Shown here: positions 4,877 through 32,250 of the stretch, piece after piece
How the letters are laid out: the number at the start of each line of letters is the position of its first letter
Numbering within the stretch: position 1 is the first letter of the stretch
Notes under the pieces: model-generated
Seen by the model: only the letters and a program-made list of their open reading frames with translations
The model's database searches: none
Told to the model about the DNA's origin: nothing
Origin: a virus
Virus record (IMG/VR): IMGVR_UViG_3300000117_000126
Coordinates: 1-32,250 of that record
Reading direction: 5' to 3' (one strand)
Length of the DNA stretch: 32,250 nucleotides
Program-made: the position numbers and the translations under genes

Positions 4877-5164
4877 ATGGCAGAAAACAAATCAATTTAT
4901 GTAGATGGTGTAAGGTTTTTTAAACCTAATGACAATGCACCAGAGAACCTAGTTGCTAATGTAATTATTACACCAAAGCTATTAGGCGAATCATTACGTC
5001 AAAAAGGAATTGAAAACGCAAAAGGCGAGTATCAAGGCAATGAGCAATATAGAGCAACACTTTGGAAAAATAGTGACGGTTCTTGCAGCATGAGTTTTAA
5101 TACTTACAAAGCCGACAGCAAGGTTCAGCAAACAGAAGAAAATGGTGACGATTTACCATTTTAG
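4877..5164 (+). CDS. Short SSB-like single-stranded-DNA-binding protein
   Basis: A 95-residue protein ending in an acidic tail, EENGDDLPF, which closely resembles the SSB C-terminal tip (DDIPF) that recruits replication and repair partners. The body (SIYVDGVRFFKPNDNAPEN, later QYRATLWKNSDGSCSMSFN) is beta-rich with aromatic residues, as an OB fold would be, but is shorter than cellular SSBs. It starts 3 bases after the annealing-protein stop and a strong terminator follows 11 bases downstream, so the two probably work together on single-stranded DNA. The tip is direct evidence; the OB fold itself is inferred. Confidence 0.6.
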   Translation: MAENKSIYVDGVRFFKPNDNAPENLVANVIITPKLLGESLRQKGIENAKGEYQGNEQYRATLWKNSDGSCSMSFNTYKADSKVQQTEENGDDLPF

Positions 5165-5722: not shown

Positions 5723-5841
5723 GAACAAATTATTCACATCAAACAAAAGACACTTTGTTGCTAGAATATACATATAGAATCAAAGCATTACAAAACGAAA
5801 TAAAAAAATTAAAAAATGAAAACAGCAAAAGACAGCAATGA
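5719..5841 (+). CDS. Small coiled-coil-like protein (40 aa)
   Basis: ATG overlaps the stop of the DUF3310 gene (ATGA), and its 3' end overlaps the next gene by 26 bases. The 40 residues contain a heptad-like basic helix (YRIKALQNEIKKLKNENSK). The tight start/stop coupling supports a real gene; without it a reader would see only an unexplained ~90-base gap. Function unknown. Confidence 0.5.
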   Translation: MRTNYSHQTKDTLLLEYTYRIKALQNEIKKLKNENSKRQQ

Positions 5842-6571
5842 AAAATATCATTCAAGTCCAGGCATAAGCGCTTCTGGACTTAAAACAATTTATAAAAAAT
5901 CTGTTTATCATTATTTAAACAGAAAACCATTTGAATCTAAATCAATGGCATTTGGAACAGCTGTACATACAGCACTTTTAGAGCCAGATAATTTTAATAA
6001 AGAGTATTATGTTTTGCATAATATAGATAGACGTACTAAAGCTGGTAAAGAACAATTTGCAGCTGCCGAAAAATTAGCTAAAAATAAAATTATGTTGCCA
6101 GGTCAAGACAAAGAACGTATTGACGCTATAAATAAAAATTTCAAAAAATCTACGTTAGCGCAATATTATTCTAAAGGACAAATAGAACTTTCACATTATG
6201 GTGAATATCAAGGTGCTAATGTTAGAATTAGACCAGATGTTTTAAATAGACATAAAGATTTTATTGCTGATGTTAAAACTTGTCAAGACAATTCACCTAA
6301 AGCATTTAAGAATGATGTTTATAAATATTCTTATCATTTACAAGCAGCATTTTATATGGACATGTTAGAAATAAATCATTTTAGATTTATAACTGTACAA
6401 TCAACTCATCCATTTACTGTTGAGGTTTATGCTTTAAGCGAAGAAATGATAGAACAAGGGCGTTTAGCTTGGAAGCAAGCATTTGCAGATTATCAAATGT
6501 ATTTAGAAACTGGTGTAATACCAAGTTATAATTGGTATCAATACGCTAATGATGGTAGTTATTTATTATGA
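5816..6571 (+). CDS. RecE/exonuclease VIII-type PD-(D/E)XK nuclease (DUF3799-like)
   Basis: A 251-residue protein with the exonuclease VIII/DUF3799 pattern. Residues 12-30 are HSSPGISASGLKTIYKKS and residues 44-60 are MAFGTAVHTALLEPDNF with His51. The nuclease core is RIRPDVL (Asp141), FIADVKTC (Asp152 and Lys154) and LQAAFY (Gln176 to Tyr180), the RecB-like order of H, D, DxK, QxxxY. These enzymes resect 5' ends of double-stranded DNA to make substrates for annealing proteins, and both an annealing candidate and an SSB-like protein lie just upstream. Length is near that of the stand-alone family domain. The stop codon overlaps the next start. Confidence 0.8.
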   Translation: MKTAKDSNEKYHSSPGISASGLKTIYKKSVYHYLNRKPFESKSMAFGTAVHTALLEPDNFNKEYYVLHNIDRRTKAGKEQFAAAEKLAKNKIMLPGQDKERIDAINKNFKKSTLAQYYSKGQIELSHYGEYQGANVRIRPDVLNRHKDFIADVKTCQDNSPKAFKNDVYKYSYHLQAAFYMDMLEINHFRFITVQSTHPFTVEVYALSEEMIEQGRLAWKQAFADYQMYLETGVIPSYNWYQYANDGSYLL

Positions 6572-17372: not shown

Positions 17373-17389
17373 TCTTAACTATTAAATAT

Positions 17390-17421: not shown

Positions 17422-17463
17422 GCTCTTTATATCTGTAAATGAAAAAATATTTAAAAAAAAACT

Positions 17464-17502: not shown

Positions 17503-17548
17503 TTATCAAATAACAATTAAAAACAATTAAAAATTTAAATAAAACGAA

Positions 17549-17812: not shown

Positions 17813-17836
17813 TAATTAATATCAAATAGAATAAAA

Positions 17837-18076
17837 ATGAAAACAACTATTGAAATGATGCTAGATAAAATAGCTAAAAAAAGATACGGTAGCAGATATA
17901 AATACTGTACAAAAAAAGAACAACACCAGTGTTTAATCTATTTAGATCAGGATTTAAAAATTATGCAAGAGGAAAAGGAACTTGAATTACACTTTAGAAA
18001 GTGTTTAAAGGTTATTTTTATGATACTTCTTGTTGGTTTGGTAGGAATGTCTTTAATAAACTTTTTTACGTCATGA
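17837..18076 (+). CDS. Small C-terminally anchored membrane protein (79 aa)
   Basis: A 79-residue protein with a charged, Cys-containing cytoplasmic part (residues 1-~55; RYGSRYKYCTKKEQHQC) and a single C-terminal transmembrane helix (VIFMILLVGLVGMSLINFF). Its tail-anchored layout suggests a protein held at the inner face of the cytoplasmic membrane. It is the second gene of the accessory cassette, and its stop overlaps the next start (ATGA). Function unknown; superinfection exclusion or membrane modulation are possible but unsupported. Confidence 0.6.
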   Translation: MKTTIEMMLDKIAKKRYGSRYKYCTKKEQHQCLIYLDQDLKIMQEEKELELHFRKCLKVIFMILLVGLVGMSLINFFTS

Positions 18077-18192
18077 GCGGTTATTATACGCCTTTTGAAG
18101 ATTTAGAATTTGTTTGCAGCGTTTGTGAAAAGCCAATGGTAAAAGATCAATATTATTGCTGCATTGATTGTTTTGAAGCAGACATGTTATGA
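18073..18192 (+). CDS. Zinc-ribbon-like miniprotein (39 aa)
   Basis: ATG 18073 overlaps the preceding stop as ATGA, so I choose it over an upstream GTG at 18001. The 39 residues hold two Cys pairs: CSVC and CIDC (preceded by another Cys, YYCCIDC), about 14 residues apart, the spacing of a minimal treble-clef or zinc ribbon. It is acidic outside the cluster. Metal binding is likely from the pattern; the target is unknown. Confidence 0.55.
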   Translation: MSGYYTPFEDLEFVCSVCEKPMVKDQYYCCIDCFEADML

Positions 18193-18332
18193 ATAATGAT
18201 TTAATAAAATATATTTTATGTACAACTTTACTGTTGTTTAGTTTAAGACAGTTATATTTGTATCACGACACAATAGGATTTCTATTCTTATTAATCCTAT
18301 TTTTTTCAGTTGCTTCCACAAGCAACAAGTAA
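18189..18332 (+). CDS. Small membrane protein (47 aa)
   Basis: Its ATG overlaps the preceding stop (ATGA). The 47 residues contain two hydrophobic stretches (YILCTTLLLFSL and IGFLFLLILFFSVAS) separated by a short polar turn, so a two-helix hairpin membrane protein is likely. It is the last gene before the terminator at 18361 in a chain of start/stop-coupled small genes. It could be a small holin-like or pore-like protein, but the true holin is probably at 23137. Confidence 0.5.
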   Translation: MNNDLIKYILCTTLLLFSLRQLYLYHDTIGFLFLLILFFSVASTSNK

Positions 18333-18360
18333 TTTTTTAATTGTTTAGTTTTAGTTAGTT

Positions 18361-18394
18361 AAAAAGCCAGGCAAAATTATTTGTCTGGTTTTTT
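18361..18394 (+). terminator. Rho-independent terminator inside the accessory cassette
   Basis: CCAGGCAAA and TTTGTCTGG pair over 9 bp (one wobble) around ATTA, followed by six Ts. Confidence 0.8.
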
Positions 18395-18408
18395 GTATAT
18401 TATAGAAC

Positions 18409-18780
18409 GTGGATACAAACTTGCTTGGTTGCACTGCGGAATATAAATTTGCCACTATGGCAATGGAAAGTGGATTGAAAGTATCAATGCCGCTGCTGGA
18501 TTCCTCACCTTATGATTGTATTGTTGAACTTCCAAATTTTGAGTTGAGAAAAATACAGATTAAATCAACAGCAAAGCCATCTGTCCCACGTGGTATTCAT
18601 GTTACGTTACACACTTACAATAGATATTATAAATTAAATGAAGTAGATTATTTTGCTATTTGGGTGCAAGCATTTGACGGTTTTTTCATAATTAAAAACA
18701 ATGGTACTAATTCAGCGTTCAAATTTACTAGACATGGTAAATATTCAAATAATTTTAATAACTTTGCAATCATAAACTAA
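18409..18780 (+). CDS. PD-(D/E)XK endonuclease (PDDEXK_5-like, homing-type)
   Basis: A 123-residue protein starting at GTG 18409; no in-frame ATG precedes the conserved part. LGCTAEYKFATMAMESGLKV (Glu11), SSPYDCIVE (Asp36) and KIQIKST (Gln50, Lys52) form the E...D...QxK active site of the PDDEXK_5 family, which includes the group I intron homing enzyme I-Ssp6803I. No intron boundaries are seen nearby, so it would be a free-standing nuclease. Terminators lie on both sides (18361, 18820), consistent with insertion as a self-contained unit between the capsid and neck genes. Cleavage target unknown. Confidence 0.65.
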   Translation: MDTNLLGCTAEYKFATMAMESGLKVSMPLLDSSPYDCIVELPNFELRKIQIKSTAKPSVPRGIHVTLHTYNRYYKLNEVDYFAIWVQAFDGFFIIKNNGTNSAFKFTRHGKYSNNFNNFAIIN

Positions 18781-18819
18781 TTCTATTATTATAGGTTATT
18801 TTTATTTCGTTTTCATTTG

Positions 18820-18854
18820 AAAAGTGCTGCAAAATATTGTGGCACTTTTTTTTT
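18820..18854 (+). terminator. Rho-independent terminator after the endonuclease
   Basis: AAAAGTGCTGCA and TGTGGCACTTTT form a 12-bp stem with two wobbles around AAATAT, then a T-run. It sits directly before the box at 18854. Confidence 0.85.
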
Positions 18855-18861
18855 ATCTTTA
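18854..18861 (+). promoter_or_regulatory. -7-like box restarting neck-gene transcription
   Basis: TATCTTTA begins 23 bases before ATG 18877 and directly abuts the T-run of the terminator. A promoter is needed here to express the neck genes after two terminators. Confidence 0.5.
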
Positions 18862-18876
18862 CATAAAATTTATATT

Positions 18877-19068
18877 ATGAAATTAAAAGCATTAATGGCT
18901 CTAAATCACAAAGGCAAAAGTTATGTTGCTGGTGATTTTATTGACGTTCCAGAAAATAAGGTTGAAGTATTTATCAATAAAGGTTGGGCGGCAAAAGAAG
19001 CTAAAGTAAAAAAAGAAACCAAGGAATTAAAAGTATCTAAAGAAACTAAAGACGATGCGTCAAATTAA
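18877..19068 (+). CDS. Small protein between capsid and neck genes (63 aa)
   Basis: I choose ATG 18877 rather than an upstream TTG, because that one lies in the terminator hairpin. The first ~40 residues (MKLKALMALNHKGKSYVAGD, then FIDVPENKVEVFINKGWA) look like a small beta-hairpin domain common in front of head-tail connector genes. The rest is a Lys/Glu-rich tail with a KETKELKVSKETK near-repeat. It overlaps the next gene by 14 bases, which ties it to the neck operon. It may be a capsid accessory or decoration-type protein; this is a guess. Confidence 0.6.
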   Translation: MKLKALMALNHKGKSYVAGDFIDVPENKVEVFINKGWAAKEAKVKKETKELKVSKETKDDASN

Positions 19069-19573
19069 AATTAATTCAACAACAGGTTCAGAACTAGTTA
19101 CAACAAGTGACGTAAAATCTTATGCAAGAATAGACACTTCAGCTGATGACACTATTATTGGGCGTATGATCGTACAAGCTAGGATTTGGTGTGAAAACTA
19201 TATTAGCAGAGATATTGTTGCTAAAAACAGAACCTATTATATTCCTAAAACATCTGGCGTATTTGACATTCCTTTTGCGCCTGTTGCTAGTATTTCAAGC
19301 GTTACTATTGACGGTGTTGCTAATACTGATTACACTGTTGAAGGTTTAGACAATGAAACTATTGATTTAGATGGTTATGCAGATAAAGTAAAAATTACTT
19401 ATGTAACAGCTGGATTATCTGACGATTTATTAAAGCAAGCAATTTTACAATTAGCTGCGACATACTACGATAATCGTTCAGAAGTTATAGATGAAAGCAA
19501 AGATATTCTTACAGTAGATGCGCCAATAAGTGTTAAAAATATATTAAGTTCTTATAGATCAATGTATTTATGA
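19055..19573 (+). CDS. Head-tail connector / neck adaptor (gp6-like, phage_connect_1)
   Basis: A 172-residue protein. TTSDVKSYARIDTSADDTII, then RIWCENYISRDIVAKNRTYY and LKQAILQLAATYYDNRSEV form the helical pattern of the HK97 gp6/phiE125 gp8 adaptor family, with an inserted beta part in between (VFDIPFAPVASISSVTIDG). It forms the ring that attaches below the portal. The 3' end overlaps the head-closure gene as ATGA, and the order adaptor, closure, gp10-like, tail completion is canonical. Confidence 0.85.
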   Translation: MRQIKINSTTGSELVTTSDVKSYARIDTSADDTIIGRMIVQARIWCENYISRDIVAKNRTYYIPKTSGVFDIPFAPVASISSVTIDGVANTDYTVEGLDNETIDLDGYADKVKITYVTAGLSDDLLKQAILQLAATYYDNRSEVIDESKDILTVDAPISVKNILSSYRSMYL

Positions 19574-19896
19574 ATCCAGGAAAACTAAATGATAGAATTA
19601 CTGTTAAAAGATTAACAAGAGTTGCTGACGGTTTTGGTGGTTATAATTCAACATTGTCAGACGTAATAACAGCATGGTGTGATTTTAAGCAAAAATCTGG
19701 TGAAATAGAAATGGTTGATGGTAAACGTCAAAGAAGCATAGAAGCTGAATTAATCATGCGTAAAAAGACCGCAGACAGCATTTCAGTAGGTGATATTTTT
19801 GTTCAAGAAAACCAAACGGATAAATTTAGAATAAATGAAATGTTTGAATCTGAATTAAAATATTTTGTAAAAATAAAAGCAACTAAAGTAGATTAA
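19570..19896 (+). CDS. Head-closure / head-tail joining protein (SPP1 gp16-like)
   Basis: A 108-residue protein of the phage_H_T_join family: MNPGKLNDRITVKRLTRVAD at the N terminus, TAWCDFKQKSGEIEMVDG, then ELIMRKKTADSISVGDIFV. It plugs the portal after packaging and provides the tail attachment surface. It overlaps the genes on both sides by single stop/start bases. The family fit is good on both length and motifs. Confidence 0.85.
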   Translation: MNPGKLNDRITVKRLTRVADGFGGYNSTLSDVITAWCDFKQKSGEIEMVDGKRQRSIEAELIMRKKTADSISVGDIFVQENQTDKFRINEMFESELKYFVKIKATKVD

Positions 19897-20336
19897 TGAA
19901 TGCAATTGTTAAAATAAATCAAAGTGATTTAAATGAACTTAAAAGAAAACTAAATTTTTTTAAAAGTTTAGACAATAAAGTTTTACCTACAGAATTAGCT
20001 AAAACGGCATTTGACATTTCAAGAGAAGCAAAAAAAACTGTTGCTGTTGATAAAGGTGGTTTAAGACAATCAATAACACCAGAAATTTCTGGCAAAACAG
20101 TTTCAGTTGTAGTAAATAAAAAATATGCGCCATACATAGAATTTGGCACTGGTAGATTAGTAAGTTTAGATGACATGTTAGAGTTAGGAATACCAAGCAC
20201 ATACGCAATGCAATTTAAAGGTAAAGGCATACGTCAAGTAAATTTACCAGCAAGACCATTTTTATTTAGTAGCGCAAGAAAAGAATTAAAAAATCTTATG
20301 GATAGGTTAACAAAAAGAATAAATAAAATTAAATAA
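19896..20336 (+). CDS. HK97 gp10-like neck/tail protein
   Basis: A 146-residue protein with the HK97-gp10 pattern: ISREAKKTVAVDKGGLRQSI, then KYAPYIEFGTGRLV and LPARPFLFSSARKE. Family members form a neck layer between head-closure ring and tail terminator. The start overlaps the preceding stop by one base, and the next gene begins at its stop. Confidence 0.85.
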   Translation: MNAIVKINQSDLNELKRKLNFFKSLDNKVLPTELAKTAFDISREAKKTVAVDKGGLRQSITPEISGKTVSVVVNKKYAPYIEFGTGRLVSLDDMLELGIPSTYAMQFKGKGIRQVNLPARPFLFSSARKELKNLMDRLTKRINKIK

Positions 20337-20773
20337 TGTTAGAATCAATACATTTTGTAAGGAAAGCAATTATTACAGCGCTGACTAGTAATGTTACTAT
20401 TGATTCAGCTAACGTGCCAGTTTATGGGCGTGTTCCTAATAATGCTAGTTTTCCTTATATAAGAGTTTATTCTGTATCTAACAATGAGGTTGACCAAAAC
20501 CGAACACAATATAACATGGAAACCATTACAAGAATAGAATGCATTGCAAGATATATTTCTGACGATGGTGGGGAATATGATGTAAATTCTATGGTTTCAC
20601 AATGTTTAAATTTATTAAGAACAAGATCGTCTGGGTATATTGATTTATCATCAGATGGTTTTACAGTTTATACAAGTGAAAACGCTGGGGTTACATATTT
20701 AGAAGAAGATATGTCTGACCATACTTATTATAGAGGAATTATTGAATTGTCAAACCGTATAACACAAAATTAA
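20336..20773 (+). CDS. Tail completion / tail terminator protein (DUF3168-like)
   Basis: A 145-residue protein. VRKAIITALTSNVTIDS, VYGRVPNNASFPYIRVYSVS and TRIECIARYIS are the DUF3168 pattern of the proteins that cap the tail tube and allow joining to the head. It follows the gp10-like gene, as in HK97-like siphophages. Normally the tail tube gene would come next; here an envelope and lysis block follows instead. Confidence 0.82.
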   Translation: MLESIHFVRKAIITALTSNVTIDSANVPVYGRVPNNASFPYIRVYSVSNNEVDQNRTQYNMETITRIECIARYISDDGGEYDVNSMVSQCLNLLRTRSSGYIDLSSDGFTVYTSENAGVTYLEEDMSDHTYYRGIIELSNRITQN

Positions 20774-20774
20774 A

Positions 20775-21077
20775 ATGGCACAAAAAATAAGCGAAAACAC
20801 TGAAATTAAATTAGATTTAAAAACAATAGGAACAATATTAGGGTTTACAGTTGCTTTAGTTTCTATGTATTTTGCTTTAAAATCAGACATAGCAAAAGCA
20901 ATGGAATTACCAGCACCTGAAATATCTAAAATAGAATGGACTTACAAAGACGATTTGATTCGTTCTAACATATCAAACACAAACGAAAAGGTTGAAGGAC
21001 TTGAAAAATCTGTTGACGAAATAAAAGAACAACTTAATAAGATAGACGAAAGATTATATCAAATAAGTAAAAAATAA
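20775..21077 (+). CDS. Membrane-anchored coiled-coil protein, i-spanin-like (100 aa)
   Basis: A 100-residue protein. Residues ~17-36 are a transmembrane helix (TIGTILGFTVALVSMYFAL) after a short cytoplasmic start; residues ~66-100 are a clear coiled coil (KVEGLEKSVDEIKEQLNKID). One N-terminal anchor followed by a periplasmic coiled coil is the inner-membrane spanin layout, and the gene begins the block that holds the endolysin and holin. No adjacent classic lipoprotein spanin partner is seen. A holin accessory role is the alternative. Confidence 0.5.
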   Translation: MAQKISENTEIKLDLKTIGTILGFTVALVSMYFALKSDIAKAMELPAPEISKIEWTYKDDLIRSNISNTNEKVEGLEKSVDEIKEQLNKIDERLYQISKK

Positions 21078-21416
21078 ATGAAACTATGTGTAACAATCCT
21101 AACTGCATTTTTTGTAACGGTTGCGACTAGTTCGCAAAACAAAGATGACATTACTGTAATTTATTATAGCGCCAAATTTATAGACGAAATATCTTTGACT
21201 GAATTTAAAGATTATAATTTGCAAAAATTTTACATGGGCGAAAACCCTAAAGTTTTTCAAAAAGAAAACGTTAAATTTTTACCAACTGTTATTTTATACA
21301 GTGACGGTGAAGAAATAATGAAATTAGAAGGAGATATAAGTTTAAAAATTAAACCAGAAAATTGGCGACAAATACTATCAGAAAATATAGATGTTTTGTT
21401 ATCGCAGCGTTTTTAA
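21078..21416 (+). CDS. Exported thioredoxin-fold protein lacking the CxxC site
   Basis: A 112-residue protein starting directly after the preceding stop. Residues 1-~19 are a signal peptide (KLCVTILTAFFVTVATSS) with Gln20 at the likely mature N terminus. The rest fits a thioredoxin fold: DITVIYYSAKFID where the active site should be, and KFLPTVILYSDGEEIMKLEG with the cis-Pro at residue 69 and the usual 'DG.e..kl.G' turn. The CxxC is absent; only Cys4, in the signal peptide, exists. It cannot do dithiol chemistry and more likely binds a protein or peptide in the periplasm. The 3' end overlaps the next gene by ~55 bases. Confidence 0.55.
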   Translation: MKLCVTILTAFFVTVATSSQNKDDITVIYYSAKFIDEISLTEFKDYNLQKFYMGENPKVFQKENVKFLPTVILYSDGEEIMKLEGDISLKIKPENWRQILSENIDVLLSQRF

Positions 21417-21733
21417 CAAGTGTATGTTTTAGTCAAATACAAAAAGACAAATACTATCACTTTGGTGCTGGAGTTGTTTCTGGTTATACTGGATATAAAA
21501 CAGTCGATCTGCCAATAGTTACTTCTTTTGTTGTAGGATTTGGCAAGGAAAGTTTAGATTATATACAATATGGTAAATTTGATACTAAAGATTTATTAGC
21601 AACTACGCTTGGTGGATTTGCAGTATCACTAACAATAAAATTAATTAATAAACCAAAAGATGAAAAAATTAATCAGCGTATTATTCGCAATTATCGTAAG
21701 CATAAGCGTAAACGGTCAAGAAAAAAAAGATAA
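21362..21733 (+). CDS. Exported YfiM/DUF2279-like envelope protein, TTG start
   Basis: No in-frame ATG occurs between the upstream stop at 21350 and the signal peptide, so TTG 21362 is the likely start. Residues 1-~24 form a signal peptide (YRCFVIAAFLTSVCFS) followed by Gln. DKYYHFGAGVVSGYTGY, then GFGKESLDYIQYGKFDTKDL and ATTLGGFAVSLTIKL resemble the YfiM/DUF2279 lipoprotein-like family (HF..G, GKE..D, D..AT..GG). There is no convincing lipobox. The ending (KHKRKRSRKKR) is very basic and coincides with the signal-peptide codons of the next gene, so this tail may reflect the overlap. Role unknown; envelope or lysis is inferred from neighbours. Confidence 0.55.
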   Translation: MATNTIRKYRCFVIAAFLTSVCFSQIQKDKYYHFGAGVVSGYTGYKTVDLPIVTSFVVGFGKESLDYIQYGKFDTKDLLATTLGGFAVSLTIKLINKPKDEKINQRIIRNYRKHKRKRSRKKR

Positions 21734-22757
21734 TATATTTAAACAAATATTTAAGTATTCAACGCCTTATGTTAGTTACTCTGAAGCTAACAGTTTACAA
21801 GGCAACCAAACATTCTATGTAACCCAATCTAGTGAACTTATAGAAACAACTGTAAGAAATCCTAACAACTATGCGTTTAATTTTGGTATTAGAAAAATAT
21901 CAAGATTTGGTTATCAAGACAGATTAAACTTTTATACTGGTAATGAAAGTAAAAGCGCATCAGAAAACGCTAATATAGGTAGCGTTGACGGTTTAGAGTA
22001 TCTTGTAAATATTTCATCTGGAAGGCAGCAAGGTATGGAGTTTACTAATAATAATTATTTCGTTAGATACGTTGGTAAATATTACATAGTAAAAGCAGAA
22101 CATTTAAAAAACCAAATAGTAGATATTGAATATAATTCTGTTGATTTAAGATTTAAATTACCTATTGGTAAAAGATTAAATTTTTCTATTGGTGCAGTTG
22201 CAAGAACAAATCCCGTTGCATATGGATTTAATCCAATACAAAAATATTTTGATGACGGCAATCCTTGGTGGTCATTAAGTTATGATTTCGGACATACAGA
22301 TCAAGTTTTTCAACAAGTAGATTTACAAGGTAATTTAATAGGTTATGATTATTTCTGGTACGATCAAAATGGAGTGCAAATAGCGAGTTCTGACGAAGAT
22401 TACAGACGTTTGCATTTTGGAACACTAGTTAATATTTATAACGCCAATGAATTATCTAAAATTGGTGATTTTACCTATTTATCTAGCATTGCTGCGTTAG
22501 ATTATTATTATTATCGTAAAAACATTTGGATTCATGGGTTTATAAACGTATTGCCACACCACAAATTATTAGACGGTGATGAACGTTATTCTTATGACAA
22601 TTTTATTGGTGATGACAAATGGGTTGATATAAAATCTGGTATTGTATTTGGATTTAGAATAAACAAATGGTTTGGTTTATTTACTGAATACAATTATCAA
22701 TCATATTGGGGTAAAGAAATACAGGAAATTAAAACAGGAATTAATATTAAGTTATGA
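21660..22757 (+). CDS. Predicted outer-membrane beta-barrel protein
   Basis: A 365-residue protein. Residues 1-~19 are a signal peptide (KKLISVLFAIIVSISVNG) followed by Gln20. The mature part is rich in alternating aromatic and polar beta strands (AFNFGIRKISRFGYQDRLNF, KLPIGKRLNFSIGAVAR, SIAALDYYYYRKNIWIHGF) and ends with strand-like WFGLFTEYNYQSYW and IKTGINIKL, as in outer-membrane barrels. Phages rarely encode such proteins; it might alter the host surface against superinfection or help disrupt the outer membrane at lysis. Both are inferences. It overlaps the preceding gene by 74 bases and the endolysin start by 4. Confidence 0.6.
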   Translation: MKKLISVLFAIIVSISVNGQEKKDNIFKQIFKYSTPYVSYSEANSLQGNQTFYVTQSSELIETTVRNPNNYAFNFGIRKISRFGYQDRLNFYTGNESKSASENANIGSVDGLEYLVNISSGRQQGMEFTNNNYFVRYVGKYYIVKAEHLKNQIVDIEYNSVDLRFKLPIGKRLNFSIGAVARTNPVAYGFNPIQKYFDDGNPWWSLSYDFGHTDQVFQQVDLQGNLIGYDYFWYDQNGVQIASSDEDYRRLHFGTLVNIYNANELSKIGDFTYLSSIAALDYYYYRKNIWIHGFINVLPHHKLLDGDERYSYDNFIGDDKWVDIKSGIVFGFRINKWFGLFTEYNYQSYWGKEIQEIKTGINIKL

Positions 22758-23137
22758 CAAAAAATTTTAGCAAATCAGAATTTGAATCAAAGTGTGGCTG
22801 CGAAATGCCACAAGAGGTTTATTATAATATTGTAAAGGTTGCAAACCAACTACAATATTTGAGAGAGCAAATAGGTAAACCAATTAAAGTAAATAGTGCT
22901 TATAGATCACCTGAACATAATGAAAAAATTGGTGGTGTAAAAAATTCACAGCATATTTTAGGTAAAGCAGCAGATATAGCTGTTAAAGGCATGCCAACAG
23001 AAATATTATACCAACATATAGAAGATGCAATTAGTAATGGCGAAATGTTACAAGGTGGCTTGGGTTTATATGACACTTTTGTTCATTACGATATAAGAGG
23101 TACTAAAGCACGTTGGGATTATAGAAAAAATAAATAA
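22754..23137 (+). CDS. Endolysin, peptidase M15 (D-Ala-D-Ala carboxypeptidase-like)
   Basis: A 127-residue single-domain M15_3 peptidase. VNSAYRSPEHNEKIGGV is followed by SQHILGKAADIAV, giving zinc ligands His67 and Asp74, and TFVHYDIRG gives the third ligand His111. It would cut peptide cross-links in peptidoglycan at the end of infection. No signal peptide is present, so release depends on a holin, which is encoded by the next gene. The start overlaps the preceding stop (ATGA), and the length is normal for the family. Confidence 0.9.
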   Translation: MTKNFSKSEFESKCGCEMPQEVYYNIVKVANQLQYLREQIGKPIKVNSAYRSPEHNEKIGGVKNSQHILGKAADIAVKGMPTEILYQHIEDAISNGEMLQGGLGLYDTFVHYDIRGTKARWDYRKNK

Positions 23138-23595
23138 TGAGTAAAAAAAGTTTTAAAGATAGTACAGTTGGAAAAATATTATTAGGCGCTGCTGGTGTTA
23201 TAAATCCAACTTTAGCAAATGTTTTAGAAGGCGTTACTTCACCAAAAGAAGCATTAGCAGAAATAACAAAATCAGACATATCACTTGACGATAAGATTAA
23301 ATTACAGCAAATGATATTTGATCAACAAAACAAAGAAATGGAAGCTGTTACAGCACGTTGGCAAGCCGATACAAGCGTTAATTCTGGCTGGTTAAGTAAA
23401 AACGTTAGACCACTTGTTTTAATTTGGTGTGTGGTAATATTTAGTTTTGCTGGCATTTTTGATAGTATAGAAGGTATTCCATTTCAAATAAATAGTTTAT
23501 GGAATGACACGTTTGAAAAAGTTATGATGTCTGTAATTATAGCATATTTTGGTGGGCGTAGTAGTGAAAAAGCAATTAATTCATTTAAGAAATAA
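23137..23595 (+). CDS. Holin of the 3-TM (GTA-type) family
   Basis: A 152-residue protein of the 3-TM holin family first defined in gene transfer agents. The N-terminal part (GKILLGAAGVINPTLANVLE) is a weak hydrophobic helix, followed by an amphipathic linker (DKIKLQQMIFDQQNKEMEAV). Then comes the hallmark NSGWLSKNVRPLVLIWCVVI and a last hydrophobic stretch (KVMMSVIIAYFGGRSSEKAI). It would permeabilise the inner membrane and release the M15 enzyme encoded just upstream. The ATG overlaps the endolysin stop. Confidence 0.85.
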   Translation: MSKKSFKDSTVGKILLGAAGVINPTLANVLEGVTSPKEALAEITKSDISLDDKIKLQQMIFDQQNKEMEAVTARWQADTSVNSGWLSKNVRPLVLIWCVVIFSFAGIFDSIEGIPFQINSLWNDTFEKVMMSVIIAYFGGRSSEKAINSFKK

Positions 23596-23720
23596 TGGCT
23601 AAAAGAAGTAAGGTTGTAAACCCAGCACAATATAGAAAAGCGCCTAAAAAAAGACCAGGCATACATTCCAAAAATAAATCACAGTCACAACGTAAAAAGA
23701 AGTCAAGAGGACAGGGCTGA
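23595..23720 (+). CDS. Tiny basic protein (41 aa)
   Basis: ATG at 23595 shares one base with the holin stop. The 41 residues are very basic (SKVVNPAQYRKAPKKRPGIH, then SQRKKKSRGQG). I recall similar short KKRPGxHSK proteins beside holin genes in marine flavobacterial phages, but this is memory, not a search. The charge suggests nucleic-acid or membrane binding. Function unknown. Confidence 0.6.
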   Translation: MAKRSKVVNPAQYRKAPKKRPGIHSKNKSQSQRKKKSRGQG

Positions 23721-23739
23721 AAGTGACTTTTATTTTTAG

Positions 23740-23747
23740 TAAATTTG
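23740..23747 (+). promoter_or_regulatory. -7 box before the giant fibre gene
   Basis: TAAATTTG exactly matches TAnnTTTG and starts 22 bases before ATG 23762, so the fibre mRNA would have a leader of roughly 8 bases. It lies in the only gap between the basic-protein gene and the fibre. Confidence 0.5.
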
Positions 23748-23761
23748 TAAAAAATCACTAA

Positions 23762-26700
23762 ATGGCTTCACTTACAGGAACTAAAATCCAAGATACTTAT
23801 GATGGCTTATTAAAAGTATCTGACAACGTTGGTATAAATTCTACAAAAAAAATAATCACAGACGGATTAGGTAATAATTCTAGTGTTAAAATATCAAGCG
23901 AGGATTTTGAAGTAGGTGGTTTTTTCTTTGTCGATATAGATGGCAACATTCCTGATTCTAAAATAGGTATTGGTACTAATGCGCCAACAGAAACTTTGCA
24001 TGTTGTTGGTGATTTTAGATTAACAGCAAGATTTTATGACGGCAGCAATTCTGCTGGTAGCAGTGGTAAGGTTTTAGTTTCAACTGGTAATGCTACAAGT
24101 TGGACTAATACGTTTACTACTTCTATGGTTTTTGATTCTGGTGTTCAATTTAACGCTGGTATAAAAGATTATACAGGTTCAAAAGGTACAGCTGGTCAAG
24201 TTTTAAGTTCTACAGGTAGCAACAATTTTGACATTGAATGGGTTTCATTATCAGAAATACAAGGTGTTGATGGTTCTGGAACTGCAAACTATATTCCCAT
24301 ATGGACTGATTCTGATACAATTGGAAATTCAGTAATATATCAATTAAATTCAAATATCGGTATTGGTACGCTTTCACCTGGCTCTTATAAATTAAATGTA
24401 TTTGGCGACTTCAAATTAGATTCTAATGGCAGTGGTTATATGCAATCTGACTACGGTGACCATAGAATTTCAATATATGATTCAAATGATAATCAAGTAG
24501 TTGCATTCCAAGATTTAGACGGCAGTTCTGCAAATCAATTAGTAGTTGCGTCAACTGGTGTTGGTATTGGTACTAATAATCCTGGTGAAAAACTTGAAGT
24601 TGTGGGGAATGTTGAAGCTGACGAATTTATTGGTGATTTAAGAGGTGCGGTTTTATTTAAAGCTCAAGCTGGTGAAGCATTAACAAAAGGTGAAGTGGTT
24701 TATATTTCTGGAATATCTGGCAACACAACCGTTGTAAGTAAAGCTGACGCAAATGATTCAGCTAAAATGCCAGCTTTTGGATTATCAGCAGAAACTGTTT
24801 CGTTAAATGCTGCTGTTGATATATATACTTTTGGAACATTATTGAATTTAGATACTAGTGCTTATTTAGAAGGTGATGAACTATTTGTTAGCACAACTGC
24901 TGGTGCGCTTACTAATACAGCGCCAACTGGTGAAAGTTCATTGATTCAGAAAATTGCTAAAGTAACTAGGTCACATGCAACCACTGGGTCAGTTAAAATT
25001 ATAGGCGCTGGCAGAACAAACGCCACACCAAATTTAGATACAGGAAAAATATTTGCTGGTAATTCAAGTAATCAAGCCGTTACAACTGACACTATTTATG
25101 TAGATATTGCAAATTCAAAAGTAGGTATTGGAACAGATAATCCTGGTGAGAAACTAGAGGTAAATACAGCAGCTCAATCAGCTATAATGTTGAGAGCTAG
25201 ATATAATGCTAATTACTACACTGACTACGGTAGTAATCAATTAAATTTTACAGGTACTAATCAAAGTTTTGATATAAAAAATAATGGAACATCTGCTTTA
25301 TTTATTAACGCATCTAGATACGTCGGGATTGGGACAACTTCTCCAAGTTCAAAACTTGAAGTAGTAGGAAATGCTAGAATAACTGGTGATGTAACACTTT
25401 CAAATGGAAATGCTCTACGATGGACTTCTGACGATGTTAGAATAGAAGGAACAACAGCTGGGGATAATATAAAATTTTATGTAGCTAATACGGAAATATT
25501 ACAATTAGCTCAATCAGGAACCTTAGCAACTATTACGGGTAATTTAAGAGTTACTGGAGCTTACTATGATTCAAACAACTTACCAGGTACTTCAGGTCAA
25601 GTATTAAGTTCTACAGCAACAGGTACTGACTGGGTATCGTTGTCTGAAATATCAGGTGTAGATGGTACAGGCACTACAAACTATGTAGCTAAATGGTCGG
25701 ATACAGACACTATAACAGATTCTGTTATTTATGATGATGGTACAAAAGTAGGAATTGGAACTGATTCGCCTGATGAACTTCTTCATATTTCCAAAACCAA
25801 TGGAACAAATGAACTTATTACTTTAAAAGTAGAAAACAACCTATCCAACGCTGAATTTGGAACACAAAGTAGTTACGCTAGAATATTAAGTGGAGGTTAT
25901 CTTGTTTATGCAGGGACTTATGGCGCAAGTTATTTTTATATAAACGGTAGTGTTGCTATGGGACTTACTTCTACTGGTTTAGGAATCGGAACTACTGCGC
26001 CAAGTTATAAGTTAAGCGTTACTACTGGCGCTGATATAGTTGCTAATTTTAATTCTACTGATAGTAAATCAAGTATATTAATAAATGATGACGATACTAG
26101 CGGTTATTTGGGTGTTGAGGATAGTGTAATGTTCATGGGTGGTTCATCTTCTGGGACTGGTGCAATTAATATATTAACAGGAATTGGTAATACTGGTTAT
26201 GTCGGAATTGGAACTGCTTCGCCTAATGAAAAACTAGAAGTAGCAGGTAATATTAGATTACAAAATTCAGGAAGAATTTATTTATGGCGTGATAATAATA
26301 ATAATTATATAGATTATGCTAACTGGATTGCATCCACAGGTACTTCTCAAATTATTCAGAATACAGGTTCTGGTGGTATAACATTTAAAACTGGAACAAG
26401 TGCTAGAATGTTTATTAATAGTTCAGGTGAAGTTTTAATAGGCGTTACATCAAACCAAACCGCTTCTAAATTAACAAGTAGAAAAAATGGTAGTTCAATT
26501 GAATTTGGTCATTTAAATCAAACTTCAGGTTATTATGGTACACTAGGAGCTATGTATACTTCTGGTCGCCCGTTTTTATCATTTAGTTGTGATAATGATT
26601 CAACTTCTGGGGGAAATAATTTTATAACTAGAGGATTTAAAGGTAATGTTATATACAATGAAACAAATGGTGATTTAAAATTTGCTCAAGCCACTAATGC

Positions 26701-29700
26701 TAATTCCACTTCACAAGCATTAACAGATAGAATGACAATTGATTCGGATGGTTTCGTCGGAATCGGAACTACTTCACCTGGTGAAAAGTTAACTGTTAGT
26801 GGAAATATTGAATCATTAGACACATTTATTTTAAACTACGGTAATAATGGTAATAAATGGCAACAATTATTTGATGGCGCTAATGGTTGGAATTTAAGAT
26901 ATTATAACGGTAGTAGTTGGAGTTCTAATTATTTAAATATATCTACTTCTGGAAATGCAACTTTTGCAGGTGATGTAACGGTTAATGGTGGTGATATATA
27001 TTTAGCTTTATCAGGTTCAACACAAAGAGCTTTGGCATCTACAGGTACTAATAGTTTACAGGTTGGAGATGCTGGAGTTCAAATGATAAGATTTAAAAAT
27101 GCAGCTGGCAACTCTTTAGATATAGCTGCTAATGGTAACGCAACTTTTGCAGGTGACATCATAACTTCATCTAACTCAGCTGTTATACAAACTCCAAGAA
27201 TTAGTATGGAAGCTGATGGTACTTTAGATTGGGGACAAGCAAGAGATTTTGGTACTTTAACTTGGGACACTGGTAAGATCATGATTAGAGCTCAAAGTGG
27301 TAAATACATGGAGCTTTCAACAGATGGTAATAACACAGCTCTAACTTTAGATACCTCTCAAAACGCAACTTTTGCAGGAGATGTAAATATTTCAAATAGT
27401 TCAGGCGCAACATTAAATATTAATACTAATTTAGGGGCGGCAGATTCTAAAATTTTATTACATGAGGGCAGTACAACTTCACCAGCTAATGGTGCATCAA
27501 TTAGATATGATGGTGTTAACAATTTATTTAAAATTGGTGTTGGAACAAATGTAGATACTACAAGATTAACTATTGCAAGGGACACTGGTGATGCAACTTT
27601 TGCTGCTGATGTAACTGTTGGAGATGACCTAAATATAAGTGGTAATGAATTAACATTTACAAATGATGCCGCTAGTGCATATATAAGAGGAGCAGATGCT
27701 TTACTTATTCAATCAGATTATAATACTGGAGAAAATAAACCTATTTATTTACAACCTTCTGCAGTTACAGAATTAAAAGTTGAAACAGGAATGTCAACTT
27801 TTACAGGTGATGTTACTATTGGTGGTGGAAATCTAGAAATAGATAGTACAATGTCATCTTCTCCAACTTCAATAATATATTTAGATGTTGACGGAAGTAA
27901 TATAAACGGTGGGGGTGGCTCTATTATATTTAGTACTTCAGCATCAGGTGGAAGTTTAACTAATTATAATGCTCAAATTAGAGGTGTAAGAGCAAGTGGT
28001 GGTGATGGTGGTGATAGTCAATTAGAATTTTGGACTACATTAGTATCTGACCAAACAGCGCCTCAAAGAAGAATGTATATCACCAAAGAAGGTGATGTTG
28101 TTATTGAGAAAAATTTAACAGTAAATGGAACTCAAACAATACTTAATACACAAACAGTAGAAGTTGAAGATAATATATTACAATTAAACACTACTCAGGG
28201 CTCACCAAATACAGCAACAGCGACTACTTCTGGTATATCTATTTATAGAGGCGATGGTGTTACACAAGCAAGTTTTATATTTGATGATGCAGACGATACA
28301 TGGGATTTAACAAATAATTTAGCTGTTGCGGGAGATGTAACTGTTGGGGGTAATATAATACTTAATGGTGCCTCTAATGAAATAATTAAATCTAATGGCT
28401 CAATAAGATTAAATATAGATTCAGACAATAATCAAACAGATAGAATATTTATAGTATCTACTGGTGCTAATTCTGAGTTATTTAGAGTGAATGAAAGTGG
28501 TAATGGAACTTTTGCAGGTACTGTTACAGCACCAAACTTTGTACTAACAGGAACTGATGGTTTTAATCTACCTTCTGGTGGTTTTGTAGATTGGGGGAAT
28601 GGTGACGCAAGAATTGTTGAAGGATTAGTAAATAATTACTCATTAAGTTTTCAAACATATGATGGTTCAGCTGTTTCTACAGCATTAAGATTAGATGGTA
28701 ATAATACAGCAACTTTTGCTGGGAATTTAACTGTTAATACAGCAAATGCTACGTTAAATTTATTATCAGGCACAAATGGTAATAGTACAATTAATTTTGG
28801 TGATCCAGCAGACAACAATCCAGGTCAAATAATATATAGACATAATGGAAATAGTATGTCATTTGATACAGCTGACAGTGAACGTATGCGTATTGATAGT
28901 TCAGGACGAGTAGGAATCGGAACTACTTCGCCTAGCAAACAATTAATGTTATATGGCAACACACCTTTTATAAGATTAGAAGATAATCAAGGTGGAAATA
29001 AAAGATTAGATTTATGGGTTGATAGTAATGCTGTTGCACATATAGATGCAAACCAATCTGCATCACAAATAACTTTAAGAACTGCTAGTACAGATAGATT
29101 AAGAATAACCAATGCTGGGTTAGTCGGTATAGGAACTACTAGTCCTCCTGAATTATTAACTATATCTGGTGATGCTAAGTATATAGCGCATTACGATGGT
29201 AGTAACTACGCTTTTAAGTTAGGCGCTGATTCTAGTGGTGATGGTAATTTTGAATTATTTAAATCTGATGGAACTAGAGTTATAAAAATATATGCAGAAG
29301 AAAACTCTCCTAGTTATATAAATAATGGCGGTAATTTTGGGATTGGAACTGATTCGCCTAGTTCAAAATTACATATAGATAGCACACAAGACGCAGTGCA
29401 TTTTACAAGAAGTGGTCAAGAAACTTATCGTATAATTCATGGAACATCTGGATTATATTTTACAAGACCAGATTCTTCTGCATTATCATTTGGTGTTACA
29501 CAAAATAGTGATTTTGATATTTTTAACACTTCTGCTTCTGTCATGTTTAGAGCAGAGGCATCAACAGGCAATATTGGAATAGGAACTACTGCGCCTAATG
29601 AAAAATTACATGTTGTAGATACAAGTAATCCAGATGCAACTTCTGGATCTGTAATAATAGAAGGTCGTAGAGATGGTTCTGCAAACCTACTAACATTAAG

Positions 29701-32250
29701 AGCAAAAGATGCTTCAGAACCAACTTCTGCCTTACCTAATGATCAAGGTGGTGTAGTTAGGTTTCAAGGTTTTGATGGAACTGATTTTGAGAATATGGGT
29801 TATATTCAAGTTGCAGCAGATGGTCAAGCAGTAGCCAATGGAGATGCACCAAGTTTTATGGCTTTCGGAACAAGTGGTGATGGTTCAAGTTCGCCTACAG
29901 AAAGAATGCGTATTGACAGTGCTGGAAATGTTGGAATAGGAAAAACACCAAATACTTGGAAATTAGATGTAGATAGTAGTAACGTATATGCTGCATCTTT
30001 TGATACCTCTAATAATGTAGGTGTGGTTATAAACGGAAACAATACTACGGCTGCTCAAATTTTCGGATTCTCTAATAGTGCTTCTACTTATAACGAATTA
30101 CATTTAAGGACAAATTCTACTAGTACAGACGGATTATATATAGATAGTTCTGGAAATGTTGGAATCAGCACTACTAGTCCTGGAGATTATGATGTTTCAG
30201 ACAATCCAATTTTAGCTGTGGGAAATACAGCAACAACTAATTACAGTTCACAAATATCTGTTTTATCTGGCTCGTCTGGTTTTGGTTATCTATTATTTGG
30301 TGATGGTGAAACAGGTAATGAAGCATATAGGGGTCAAGTACGTTATGACCACACTAATGATTCTTTAGAGTTTGTTACAGCTGGGTCAGAGAGAATGCAA
30401 ATTACAAGTGATGGTTATTTAGGAATAAACACTACTTTACCAGTTAACCCATTGCATGTTGAAGGTAACTTTACTTTACGAGGTAACCAATATATGGGTG
30501 ATGACGAAAAACTAATTTTAGGTTTAGGTTCAGATTTACAAATCTATCACGATGGCACTGATTCAGTTATACAAAACGAAACTGGCGATCTTGAGATTCA
30601 AAATAGGCAAAATGATGGTGACATTAAATTTAAATCTGATGATGGTTCTGGCGGGGTAGCTGAATATTTTAGATTAGATGGTGGTTTAGTAAATGGAACT
30701 TCAACTTTAGGTGCTACACTTTTTCCAGATAAATCAAAAATATTTATGGGTACTGGTAATGATTTAAGAATTTATCACAATGGTACTGATTCTGCATTTG
30801 AAAATGTAAATGGTGATTTATATATACAAAATTATGCTGATAATAAAGACATTATATTTCAATCTGATGACGGATCTGGCGGAGTTACTGAATATTTTAG
30901 ATTAGATGGTAACAATACAAATATGGTAGCATCTAAAACTATTGTATTTGCTGATAATGCAAAAGCTAGTTTTGGTGCAAGTGAAGATTTAAAAATAAAA
31001 CATGATGGTACAGATTCTTTTATAATAAATGAAACAGGTAATTTAAAAATTACGCAAAATGCTGATGATGGAGATATAGTATTCCAATCAGATAATGGTA
31101 GTGGTAGTTTAGCTACGTATTTTGCATTAGACGGCGGAATTACTAGAACAGTTGCTTATAAAAACTTTAATTTTCAAGATAATGTAAAATTAGAAATGGG
31201 AACTGGAGCTGATTTACAAATATATCATTCAGGTACTAATAGCCATATAGCTGATACAGGAACAGGTAATTTATATTTAGATGCTACCAACTTAATTCTT
31301 AGAAATGGTACTGGTACTGAAACATATATGACTGCTGCTAATAATGGCGGTGTTAATTTATATTACGAAAATGTTATAAAATTCTCTACAAATAGCACAG
31401 GTATAACAGTTCAAGGTGACAGCAATGATATTACTTTTGTTAATGATTCTTCAACTGATCATAATTATTTAAAAGTATTTGTTCCTGATGTAACAGTTAA
31501 TGCGTTAGGTGTTAGTCAAACTAATGTTTATATACCTATTGCTTTAGAGGTTGACGGTCAAGCAACATTTAATAATGGTATAGAAGTAGGAGGTGCTGCT
31601 TCGAGATTTAGCAATTCAGTAAGATTTTCTGCTAACGCAACATTTGATGATAATTCAAAAGCAATATTCGGCGACGATGATGATCTTCAAATATATCATG
31701 ATGGCTCAAATAGTTACATAGATGATACAGGTACAGGTAATTTATTAATAAGAGCTGGTAACCTACGATTACAAAGAGCAGATGGCACACAATCATTTTT
31801 AGTTGCAAATACTGGCGCTGAAGTAATTTTATACTACGCAGGCAATAAAAAGTTTGAGACAACGACAGGTGGTGTTGCTGTAACAGGTCAAGCATCAGTT
31901 ACAAATGGAATAGAAATAACAGGTGGTAATGCTAATTTTGCTGATAATAGTAGAGCAAGATTTGGTGCTTCTACTGATCTACAAATTTATCACGATGGTA
32001 GTAATAGTTTTATTACAGATTCTGGAACGGGTAATTTAATTATATCTAGTAGTTTTTTAACACTTAGCAACGCAGCCGATACAGAATATATGGCTAAGCT
32101 AGTTGAAAACGCACAAGTTGAATTATATTATAACGGAAGCAAAAAGTTTGAAACTACAAGTACTGGTGTTTTAGTTTCTGGATTTTTAGAATCTAAAAAA
32201 GCTGATACTGGTGCTGGTTATAATGACGGTATTGCAAGATTTGTAAATGA
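23762..32250 (+). CDS. Giant modular repeat fibre/adhesin (3' end outside window)
   Basis: An uninterrupted frame of 2829 codons plus two bases starts at ATG 23762 and runs off the window. I read three repeat families. Residues ~65-1010 and ~1710-2235 carry about 16 copies of an IGIGTxxPxEKLxVxGN motif. Residues ~1060-1660 carry about eight NATFAGDVTV-type motifs. From residue ~2250 on there are six DLQIYHDGTxSxI motifs with ETGDL or TGTGNL and YFRLDG or KKFETTSTGV partners. Residues ~298-420 form a distinct beta domain (AGEALTKGEVVYISGISG). Such repeats are typical of trimeric beta-helical tail fibres; many end in an S74 chaperone domain, which would lie beyond the window. Role in host binding is inferred. 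Confidence 0.85.
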   Translation, partial: MASLTGTKIQDTYDGLLKVSDNVGINSTKKIITDGLGNNSSVKISSEDFEVGGFFFVDIDGNIPDSKIGIGTNAPTETLHVVGDFRLTARFYDGSNSAGSSGKVLVSTGNATSWTNTFTTSMVFDSGVQFNAGIKDYTGSKGTAGQVLSSTGSNNFDIEWVSLSEIQGVDGSGTANYIPIWTDSDTIGNSVIYQLNSNIGIGTLSPGSYKLNVFGDFKLDSNGSGYMQSDYGDHRISIYDSNDNQVVAFQDLDGSSANQLVVASTGVGIGTNNPGEKLEVVGNVEADEFIGDLRGAVLFKAQAGEALTKGEVVYISGISGNTTVVSKADANDSAKMPAFGLSAETVSLNAAVDIYTFGTLLNLDTSAYLEGDELFVSTTAGALTNTAPTGESSLIQKIAKVTRSHATTGSVKIIGAGRTNATPNLDTGKIFAGNSSNQAVTTDTIYVDIANSKVGIGTDNPGEKLEVNTAAQSAIMLRARYNANYYTDYGSNQLNFTGTNQSFDIKNNGTSALFINASRYVGIGTTSPSSKLEVVGNARITGDVTLSNGNALRWTSDDVRIEGTTAGDNIKFYVANTEILQLAQSGTLATITGNLRVTGAYYDSNNLPGTSGQVLSSTATGTDWVSLSEISGVDGTGTTNYVAKWSDTDTITDSVIYDDGTKVGIGTDSPDELLHISKTNGTNELITLKVENNLSNAEFGTQSSYARILSGGYLVYAGTYGASYFYINGSVAMGLTSTGLGIGTTAPSYKLSVTTGADIVANFNSTDSKSSILINDDDTSGYLGVEDSVMFMGGSSSGTGAINILTGIGNTGYVGIGTASPNEKLEVAGNIRLQNSGRIYLWRDNNNNYIDYANWIASTGTSQIIQNTGSGGITFKTGTSARMFINSSGEVLIGVTSNQTASKLTSRKNGSSIEFGHLNQTSGYYGTLGAMYTSGRPFLSFSCDNDSTSGGNNFITRGFKGNVIYNETNGDLKFAQATNANSTSQALTDRMTIDSDGFVGIGTTSPGEKLTVSGNIESLDTFILNYGNNGNKWQQLFDGANGWNLRYYNGSSWSSNYLNISTSGNATFAGDVTVNGGDIYLALSGSTQRALASTGTNSLQVGDAGVQMIRFKNAAGNSLDIAANGNATFAGDIITSSNSAVIQTPRISMEADGTLDWGQARDFGTLTWDTGKIMIRAQSGKYMELSTDGNNTALTLDTSQNATFAGDVNISNSSGATLNINTNLGAADSKILLHEGSTTSPANGASIRYDGVNNLFKIGVGTNVDTTRLTIARDTGDATFAADVTVGDDLNISGNELTFTNDAASAYIRGADALLIQSDYNTGENKPIYLQPSAVTELKVETGMSTFTGDVTIGGGNLEIDSTMSSSPTSIIYLDVDGSNINGGGGSIIFSTSASGGSLTNYNAQIRGVRASGGDGGDSQLEFWTTLVSDQTAPQRRMYITKEGDVVIEKNLTVNGTQTILNTQTVEVEDNILQLNTTQGSPNTATATTSGISIYRGDGVTQASFIFDDADDTWDLTNNLAVAGDVTVGGNIILNGASNEIIKSNGSIRLNIDSDNNQTDRIFIVSTGANSELFRVNESGNGTFAGTVTAPNFVLTGTDGFNLPSGGFVDWGNGDARIVEGLVNNYSLSFQTYDGSAVSTALRLDGNNTATFAGNLTVNTANATLNLLSGTNGNSTINFGDPADNNPGQIIYRHNGNSMSFDTADSERMRIDSSGRVGIGTTSPSKQLMLYGNTPFIRLEDNQGGNKRLDLWVDSNAVAHIDANQSASQITLRTASTDRLRITNAGLVGIGTTSPPELLTISGDAKYIAHYDGSNYAFKLGADSSGDGNFELFKSDGTRVIKIYAEENSPSYINNGGNFGIGTDSPSSKLHIDSTQDAVHFTRSGQETYRIIHGTSGLYFTRPDSSALSFGVTQNSDFDIFNTSASVMFRAEASTGNIGIGTTAPNEKLHVVDTSNPDATSGSVIIEGRRDGSANLLTLRAKDASEPTSALPNDQGGVVRFQGFDGTDFENMGYIQVAADGQAVANGDAPSFMAFGTSGDGSSSPTERMRIDSAGNVGIGKTPNTWKLDVDSSNVYAASFDTSNNVGVVINGNNTTAAQIFGFSNSASTYNELHLRTNSTSTDGLYIDSSGNVGISTTSPGDYDVSDNPILAVGNTATTNYSSQISVLSGSSGFGYLLFGDGETGNEAYRGQVRYDHTNDSLEFVTAGSERMQITSDGYLGINTTLPVNPLHVEGNFTLRGNQYMGDDEKLILGLGSDLQIYHDGTDSVIQNETGDLEIQNRQNDGDIKFKSDDGSGGVAEYFRLDGGLVNGTSTLGATLFPDKSKIFMGTGNDLRIYHNGTDSAFENVNGDLYIQNYADNKDIIFQSDDGSGGVTEYFRLDGNNTNMVASKTIVFADNAKASFGASEDLKIKHDGTDSFIINETGNLKITQNADDGDIVFQSDNGSGSLATYFALDGGITRTVAYKNFNFQDNVKLEMGTGADLQIYHSGTNSHIADTGTGNLYLDATNLILRNGTGTETYMTAANNGGVNLYYENVIKFSTNSTGITVQGDSNDITFVNDSSTDHNYLKVFVPDVTVNALGVSQTNVYIPIALEVDGQATFNNGIEVGGAASRFSNSVRFSANATFDDNSKAIFGDDDDLQIYHDGSNSYIDDTGTGNLLIRAGNLRLQRADGTQSFLVANTGAEVILYYAGNKKFETTTGGVAVTGQASVTNGIEITGGNANFADNSRARFGASTDLQIYHDGSNSFITDSGTGNLIISSSFLTLSNAADTEYMAKLVENAQVELYYNGSKKFETTSTGVLVSGFLESKKADTGAGYNDGIARFVN
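23957..30480 (+). repeat. GIGTxxP repeat family in the fibre gene
   Basis: About 16 copies of GIGTxxPxxxLxV, for example at about 23966, 24561, 25120, 25324, 25750, 25981, 26206, 26758, 28915, 29125, 29338, 29575 and the degenerate last ones near 29935, 30160 and 30421. Spacing varies, from ~200 to over 2000 bases. DNA of several copies is nearly identical, e.g. GGAATCGGAACTACTTC near 26758 and 28915. Confidence 0.85.
26938..28740 (+). repeat. NATFAGDVTV repeat family in the fibre gene
   Basis: About eight copies of a short (N)ATFAGDVTV-like motif fill the part where GIGT motifs are absent. The minus-strand open frames in this part are by-products of the repeat. Confidence 0.75.
30533..32200 (+). 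repeat. LQIYHDGT repeats in the fibre gene
   Basis: Motif DLxIYHDGTxS starts at 30533, 30761, 30986, 31211, 31682 and 31976. The first four are in tandem with a period of 76, 75 and 75 codons; the last two belong to a longer variant unit of ~98-157 codons with TGTGNL and LYYxGxKKFETT parts. The array probably goes on past the window. Confidence 0.85.

Follow-up and report, generated by a model that had tools for sequence, protein, structure and literature searches.

Giant repetitive fibres, S74 caps, GIGT capping loops (in the Bdellovibrio MAT fibres) and fibre mosaicism have all been described previously. MAT fibres are trimeric beta-helices bounded by capping loops with the consensus V-G-G/N-pi-X-X-P-X-X-X-L, and they include an S74 subgroup that carries the SDxxxK motif (PMC10769870). 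In the parts of two further papers considered here, one on domain shuffling in tail fibres (Smug et al., PMC10684548) and one on metaviromic islands (Mizuno et al., PMC3909814), recognition genes are described as both mosaic and hypervariable among phages that are otherwise near-identical.

The window, which is the whole stretch of DNA analysed here (32,250 nucleotides), ends inside a fibre gene whose frame contains no stop up to base 32248, in agreement with an earlier note on this DNA that had read an open frame of at least 2829 residues. IMG/VR lists the window as a linear virus record, so the missing stop reflects the end of the contig, that is, of the assembly. The frame does code for protein, as its N-terminal module is conserved in four other contigs (84-96% protein identity over 281 codons) and a syntenic, complete homologue exists. 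The further claim that a gene finder would miss this frame was judged weak, since common gene finders accept genes that run off a contig edge. The fibre is laid out as follows:

23762..32248, + strand: fibre gene, ATG start, complete at the 5' end and open at the contig end; 2,829 codons
23762..24604, + strand: conserved N-terminal module, residues 1-281; probable virion-attachment end
24608..25081, + strand: globular knob, residues 283-440; AlphaFold core with pLDDT mostly 85-96; Foldseek matches to capsid decoration proteins and the phi29 head-fibre base
25121..26821, + strand: first GIGTxxP block beyond the knob, motifs at residues 454, 521, 663, 740, 814 and 999
26957..28729, + strand: ATFAGDV block, residues 1066-1656
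28910..30466, + strand: second GIGTxxP block, motifs at residues 1717-2220
30497..32248, + strand: LQIYHDG block, six motifs, the first four about 75 residues apart; all-beta AlphaFold model

A motif scan recovered the order GIGT, ATFAG, GIGT, LQIYHDG that had been proposed before. The first nine of the 15 GIGTxxP-like motifs lie at residues 68, 199 and 267 and at the six positions of the first block, and the last six at residues 1717, 1788, 1859, 1938, 2133 and 2220; chance cannot explain 15 copies of this eight-residue motif in the fibre. Five ATFAG-like motifs (residues 1066, 1127, 1202, 1278 and 1650) include a gap of 372 residues without a strict copy. The six LQIYHDG-like motifs start at residues 2258, 2334, 2409, 2484, 2641 and 2739, so that the tandem units of 75 residues described earlier hold for the first four (spacings of 76, 75 and 75) and give way to spacings of 157 and 98 residues. 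The earlier note had also overlooked the globular, non-repeat domain at residues ~283-440. A Pfam scan of the window fibre gave nothing significant (NfeD at 0.12), and a literature search returned no match to the LQIYHDG string. Seven PHROG families match the fibre, with E down to 1e-63.

The GIGT units match the Bdellovibrio MAT fibre structures 8ond, 8ojn and 8oml (phmmer, E 5e-7 to 5e-4), and because capping loops have been published for these fibres, the GIGT repeat is taken to be a known structural element. At the level of sequence, the 15 motifs and the phmmer matches agree with the capping-loop motif on a trimeric beta-helix by which MAT fibres are recognised; a signal peptide followed by a conserved beta-rich domain of ~130 residues, which also marks MAT fibres, was not found, the N-terminus MASLTGTKIQDTYDGLLKVSDNVGINSTKK being free of a hydrophobic signal stretch on inspection. 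The LQIYHDG block was modelled by AlphaFold as an all-beta monomer (pLDDT 83), a form of model that cannot test an intertwined trimer, and no convincing structural match to it was found, the best being the Mu tail fibre (E 1e-3, TM 0.2).

The gene would encode the main host-adhesion fibre of a siphovirus-like marine phage of ~35.5 kb. Three chains would intertwine into a long beta-helical shaft, in which the GIGTxxP motifs would form the capping loops of successive units, and the ATFAG and LQIYHDG/KKFETT motifs may play an equivalent joining role. A trimeric knob resembling decoration proteins would be located near the N-terminus; at the other end, an S74 chaperone would trimerise the chains and then cut itself off. 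The repeated motifs would act as seams, the near-identical short DNA at each motif permitting whole cassettes to be swapped between co-occurring phages through homology-driven recombination, with the outcome that the attachment end and the folding cap are conserved while the middle varies. Taken as a whole, this reading is considered quite probable: an adhesion fibre that is a trimer of beta-helical chains, whose S74 cap cleaves itself off and whose diversity arises from cassettes exchanged at the repeat seams.

The distal end of the fibre lies outside the window, as had been supposed, and in relatives it is an S74 chaperone. The related contig L032, which is 91-95% identical in DNA to the window over positions 1523-7120, also shares the last 297 bases of the window:

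31954..32250, + strand: C-terminal segment common to L032 (90.6% DNA identity); in L032 the frame goes on for another 150 residues, through Peptidase_S74 to a stop

The stop lies at L032:1738, and the Peptidase_S74 domain (PF13884) was detected at 5e-12 (46 bits against a cutoff of 22). The syntenic contig L005 contains an intact fibre homologue of 3,052 residues with the same ending (Peptidase_S74 at 1.1e-11), and SDYRLK, an instance of the SDxxxK catalytic motif, is present in both. A stop and a C-terminal S74 chaperone, which the earlier note had proposed to seek in flanking sequence, were thus both found in these relatives. The window sequence ends ~54 residues before the SDxxxK position, the S74 domain itself lying beyond the window. 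Provided that the window continues as L032 does, the complete fibre would comprise ~2,980 residues, and the mature fibre, if cut before the Ser of SDxxxK, would comprise ~2,880. Scaled roughly from MAT fibres, at about 0.4-0.65 Angstrom per residue, the fibre would measure 110-190 nm. On the same premise the genome would be siphovirus-like and ~35.5 kb long, the gap between the window ends being ~3.2 kb as measured on L032. This size agrees with the lengths of relatives' contigs (35.4, 35.7, 35.9 and 37.1 kb). The S74 end itself travels between phages, as it is 95% identical in DNA between L049 and L032, in which the downstream tail genes are ~66% identical.

A different arrangement is seen in the contig L026 of a distant relative, in which the fibre at L026:10001-12817 has 938 residues and lacks S74, another frame (12818-18133), 1,772 residues or more in length, follows directly after it, and a frame at the opposite end of the contig finishes in an S74-like segment; the fibre may be split into two genes in this phage.

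Comparison of fibres from different contigs places the borders of their shared segments at the repeat motifs. L003 is 96.7% identical to the window in DNA over positions 18299-24606, and past fibre residue 282, close to the GIGT motif at 267, the similarity is lost; in L004, L005 and L006 it breaks off at residues 269-274, near the same motif. Beyond these points, the window fibre shares isolated cassettes with individual relatives:

25979..26223, + strand: cassette common to L003, 94% DNA identity, reaching from the GIGT motif at residue 740 exactly to that at residue 814, with dissimilar flanks
28709..28898, + strand: cassette common to L005, 89.5% DNA identity, from ATFAG (residue 1650) to just before GIGT (residue 1717), with no more than moderate similarity over the first ~30 bases

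Junctions were collected from 60 fibre frames as the ends of segments shared at 85% DNA identity or more (85-100%) between otherwise dissimilar fibres, and were compared with 677 random in-register swap junctions simulated on the same genes and passed through the same BLAST procedure. The motif window of both partners contained 22 of the 63 distinct junctions (15 at GIGT, 4 at ATFAG and 3 at LQIYHDG), compared with 9.5% of the simulated ones (p = 3e-8). The other junctions weigh against seams at the motifs: 8 fell in the motif window of one partner only, and 33 had no strict motif in either partner, although several of them lie at degenerate motifs or in adjoining conserved ERMRI/KKFETT stretches. 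Some cassette swaps cross phage lineages: L118 has cassettes of 92-94% identity in common with L005, L006 and L032, and its only match to the other genes of the window is one of 43% to a small downstream protein. Likewise, L035, a contig of 59.9 kb, and L049 have in common a cassette of 90% identity that extends from one GIGT motif to the next.

These observations bear on the earlier proposal that the fibre was assembled stepwise from modules of different origin. They uphold a modular fibre whose segments are exchanged between phages, and support neither a stepwise order nor separate origins of the three repeat types. In hhalign, GIGT showed no clear excess over column-shuffled controls when compared with the other two motif regions, and ATFAG matched the KKFETT part of the LQIYHDG unit weakly, yet above 40 of 40 shuffled controls. 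In L174 and L175, one stretch of ~870 bases, 96% identical, follows GIGT in one phage and ATFAG in the other, suggesting that the repeat types are interchangeable at equivalent positions.

The main rival to exchange driven by homology at the motifs holds that the seams are structural: recombination would strike at random, and only swaps of whole units, from capping loop to capping loop, would fold and survive selection. As GIGT capping loops bound structural units in MAT fibres, unit-wise swaps are expected to fold, and the position of a seam could reflect the viability of the protein joint instead of DNA homology. The codons of the motifs bear on both accounts. Codon context explains part of their uniformity before proline, as the structural account would have it, and a plain codon-bias argument (Ser TCG 39% against a background of 3%) was dropped: these phages generally prefer NCG codons ahead of proline, so that a plain background exaggerates the uniformity. 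Against this account, the motif codons remain more uniform when each is compared with matching dipeptides in other parts of these genes (for example, Thr ACT 89% against 39%, Gly GGA 54% against 34% and Ser TCG 35% against 14%, and for the Lys of KF, AAG 76% against 35%), and both junctions between L035 and L049 lie inside GGNACTACT-CC, where the DNA is most alike between units. The leftover codon excess is consistent with recombination through motif DNA and is no proof of it, the copies being related by descent. Purely structural seams are a serious contender, judged somewhat doubtful, and DNA homology and selection on the protein joint may act together. A bolder extension, in which the motifs are a DNA currency shared by unrelated marine phages, the near-identical codons of GIGT, ATFAG and KKFETT being kept as recombination boxes through which fibre cassettes circulate and the repeat grammar selected for exchange as well as for shape, is entertained tentatively and thought unlikely.

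Exchange through homology at the seams would call for recombination enzymes, for which the window offers candidates:

4877..5164, + strand: 95-residue protein ending in ENGDDLPF, with an SSB-like acidic tail (by inspection), near the RecE-like exonuclease
5816..6571, + strand: exonuclease VIII (RecE-like) family protein, candidate engine of homology-driven exchange

Phage Rad52-like recombinases, together with such exonucleases, join diverged sequences via short homology (PMC3945230). The 95-residue protein has no significant Pfam match, and no annealing recombinase was identified in the window. A 159-residue protein (4394-4873) was considered for this role and is a candidate that no database supports, with no Pfam or PDB match; it adjoins the gene with the DDLPF tail, near the RecE-like exonuclease, and its relatives in Lactobacillus and Pelagibacter phages are all hypothetical. 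No reverse transcriptase, the mark of a diversity-generating retroelement, was found among the window proteins scanned against PHROGs, a set that left out several ORFs below ~125 residues.

The gene order of the window begins with a tape measure gene (cut), a 673-residue virion protein and replication and recombination genes, continues with the small and large terminase, portal, head morphogenesis, protease, major capsid, neck and tail terminator genes, and closes with a 365-residue protein of no assigned function, an M15 peptidase endolysin, a holin and the fibre:

22754..23137, + strand: endolysin, Peptidase_M15_3
23137..23595, + strand: holin, directly upstream of the fibre

A PDDEXK_5 endonuclease-like gene (18409-18780) is located inside the head-to-neck block. 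Downstream of its fibre, L032 encodes a DUF7936 protein, two Phage_tail_2 tube-like proteins and then the tape measure; the two tube-like proteins are encoded in tandem (L032:2355-3282; 155 and 135 residues), and the tube of this phage may be built from two paralogues. The portal is nearest to those of Cellulophaga phages (33%), which suggests a Bacteroidota host; as no relative turned up when bacterial and archaeal genomes were scanned for the major capsid protein, the host is a guess from portal similarity.

The fibre probably belongs to the tail, as indicated by its homology to three PHROG families annotated as tail fiber (9942, 8745 and 18345) and by its place in the structural gene module. 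That it is instead a head (capsid) fibre could be argued from the knob, whose Foldseek matches are the capsid decoration proteins of HFTV1, Pam3 and TW1 and the phi29 head-fibre base gp8.5, as well as from one matching PHROG annotated as head and packaging and from the position of the gene upstream of the tail tube genes. The knob, however, is internal (residues 283-440) and is present in annotated tail fibres of Synechococcus, Flavobacterium and Pseudomonas phages, and where the attachment of an S74 fibre is known, as for T5 Ltf, it is to the tail; together with the three tail fiber families, this makes a head fibre improbable. The knob domain also occurs inside many fibre-like proteins of unrelated phages; it is probably trimeric, and the modelled similarity suggests that decoration proteins and fibre knobs are one reused fold.

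The fibre gene, which takes up about a quarter of the genome, is cut in 13 of the 14 contigs that carry the N-terminal module (at least 84% identity) or the S74 module (at least 79%), namely in (the window, L003, L004, L006, L032, L049, L113, L114, L116, L123, L129, L149 and L172), a count biased by the loci having been found through the fibre; the gene evidently assembles badly. It is conceivable that short-read assemblers joined pieces of different phages at near-identical motif DNA, but a mosaic produced in this way is very unlikely, as four contigs, drawn from different metagenomes, agree on the GIGT motif at which the N-terminal module ends, the frames stay open over thousands of codons, and the most alike motif stretches, of ~20-30 bases, are shorter than typical assembly k-mers.

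Fibres that contain GIGT and LQIYHDG repeats abound in marine phages, and most of their annotations give no mechanism. Should the repeats be seams, a single swap through short homology would change the putative receptor-binding module while the attachment and folding ends are kept. This would help to explain both the sharp differences in fibres among near-identical phages and the frequent assembly breaks there, and the repeats would serve as a map for recognising modules.

Among known systems, a near precedent for exchange at repeat motifs is that of glycine-rich motifs in T-even gp38. The T5 L-shaped tail fibre and the K1F endosialidase likewise combine a long fibre with a C-terminal intramolecular chaperone, a domain seen here in relatives and presumed to function in the same way; unlike them, the window fibre has a much longer repeat shaft, no recognisable enzyme domain and no shaft Pfam domain. 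Repetitive structural and fibre proteins of cyanophages, pelagiphages and roseophages (PHROG 9942, 13518, 8745, 18345 and 19195) use the same GIGT and LQIYHDG vocabulary, and 179 phage records match the fibre, mostly from Synechococcus and Prochlorococcus phages, all at less than 60% identity and none covering more than 80% of the query in one place. The S74 subgroup of the Bdellovibrio MAT fibres (Bd3182 and others; PMC10769870) resembles the window fibre in the GIGTxxPxxxL capping-loop motif, the repetitive beta-helical fibre, the mosaic tips and the S74 ending with SDxxxK, which for the window fibre is seen in relatives. Unlike these MAT fibres, the window fibre is encoded in a phage structural module, has no visible signal peptide, is about three times longer, and contains additional ATFAG and LQIYHDG blocks as well as an internal decoration-like knob. 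In the parts considered here, the studies of fibre shuffling and metaviromic islands (PMC10684548 and PMC3909814) do not place junctions on repeat motifs, unlike the present mapping; the new detail is the specific anatomy of this fibre, together with cassette junctions mapped to repeat motifs across phage lineages.
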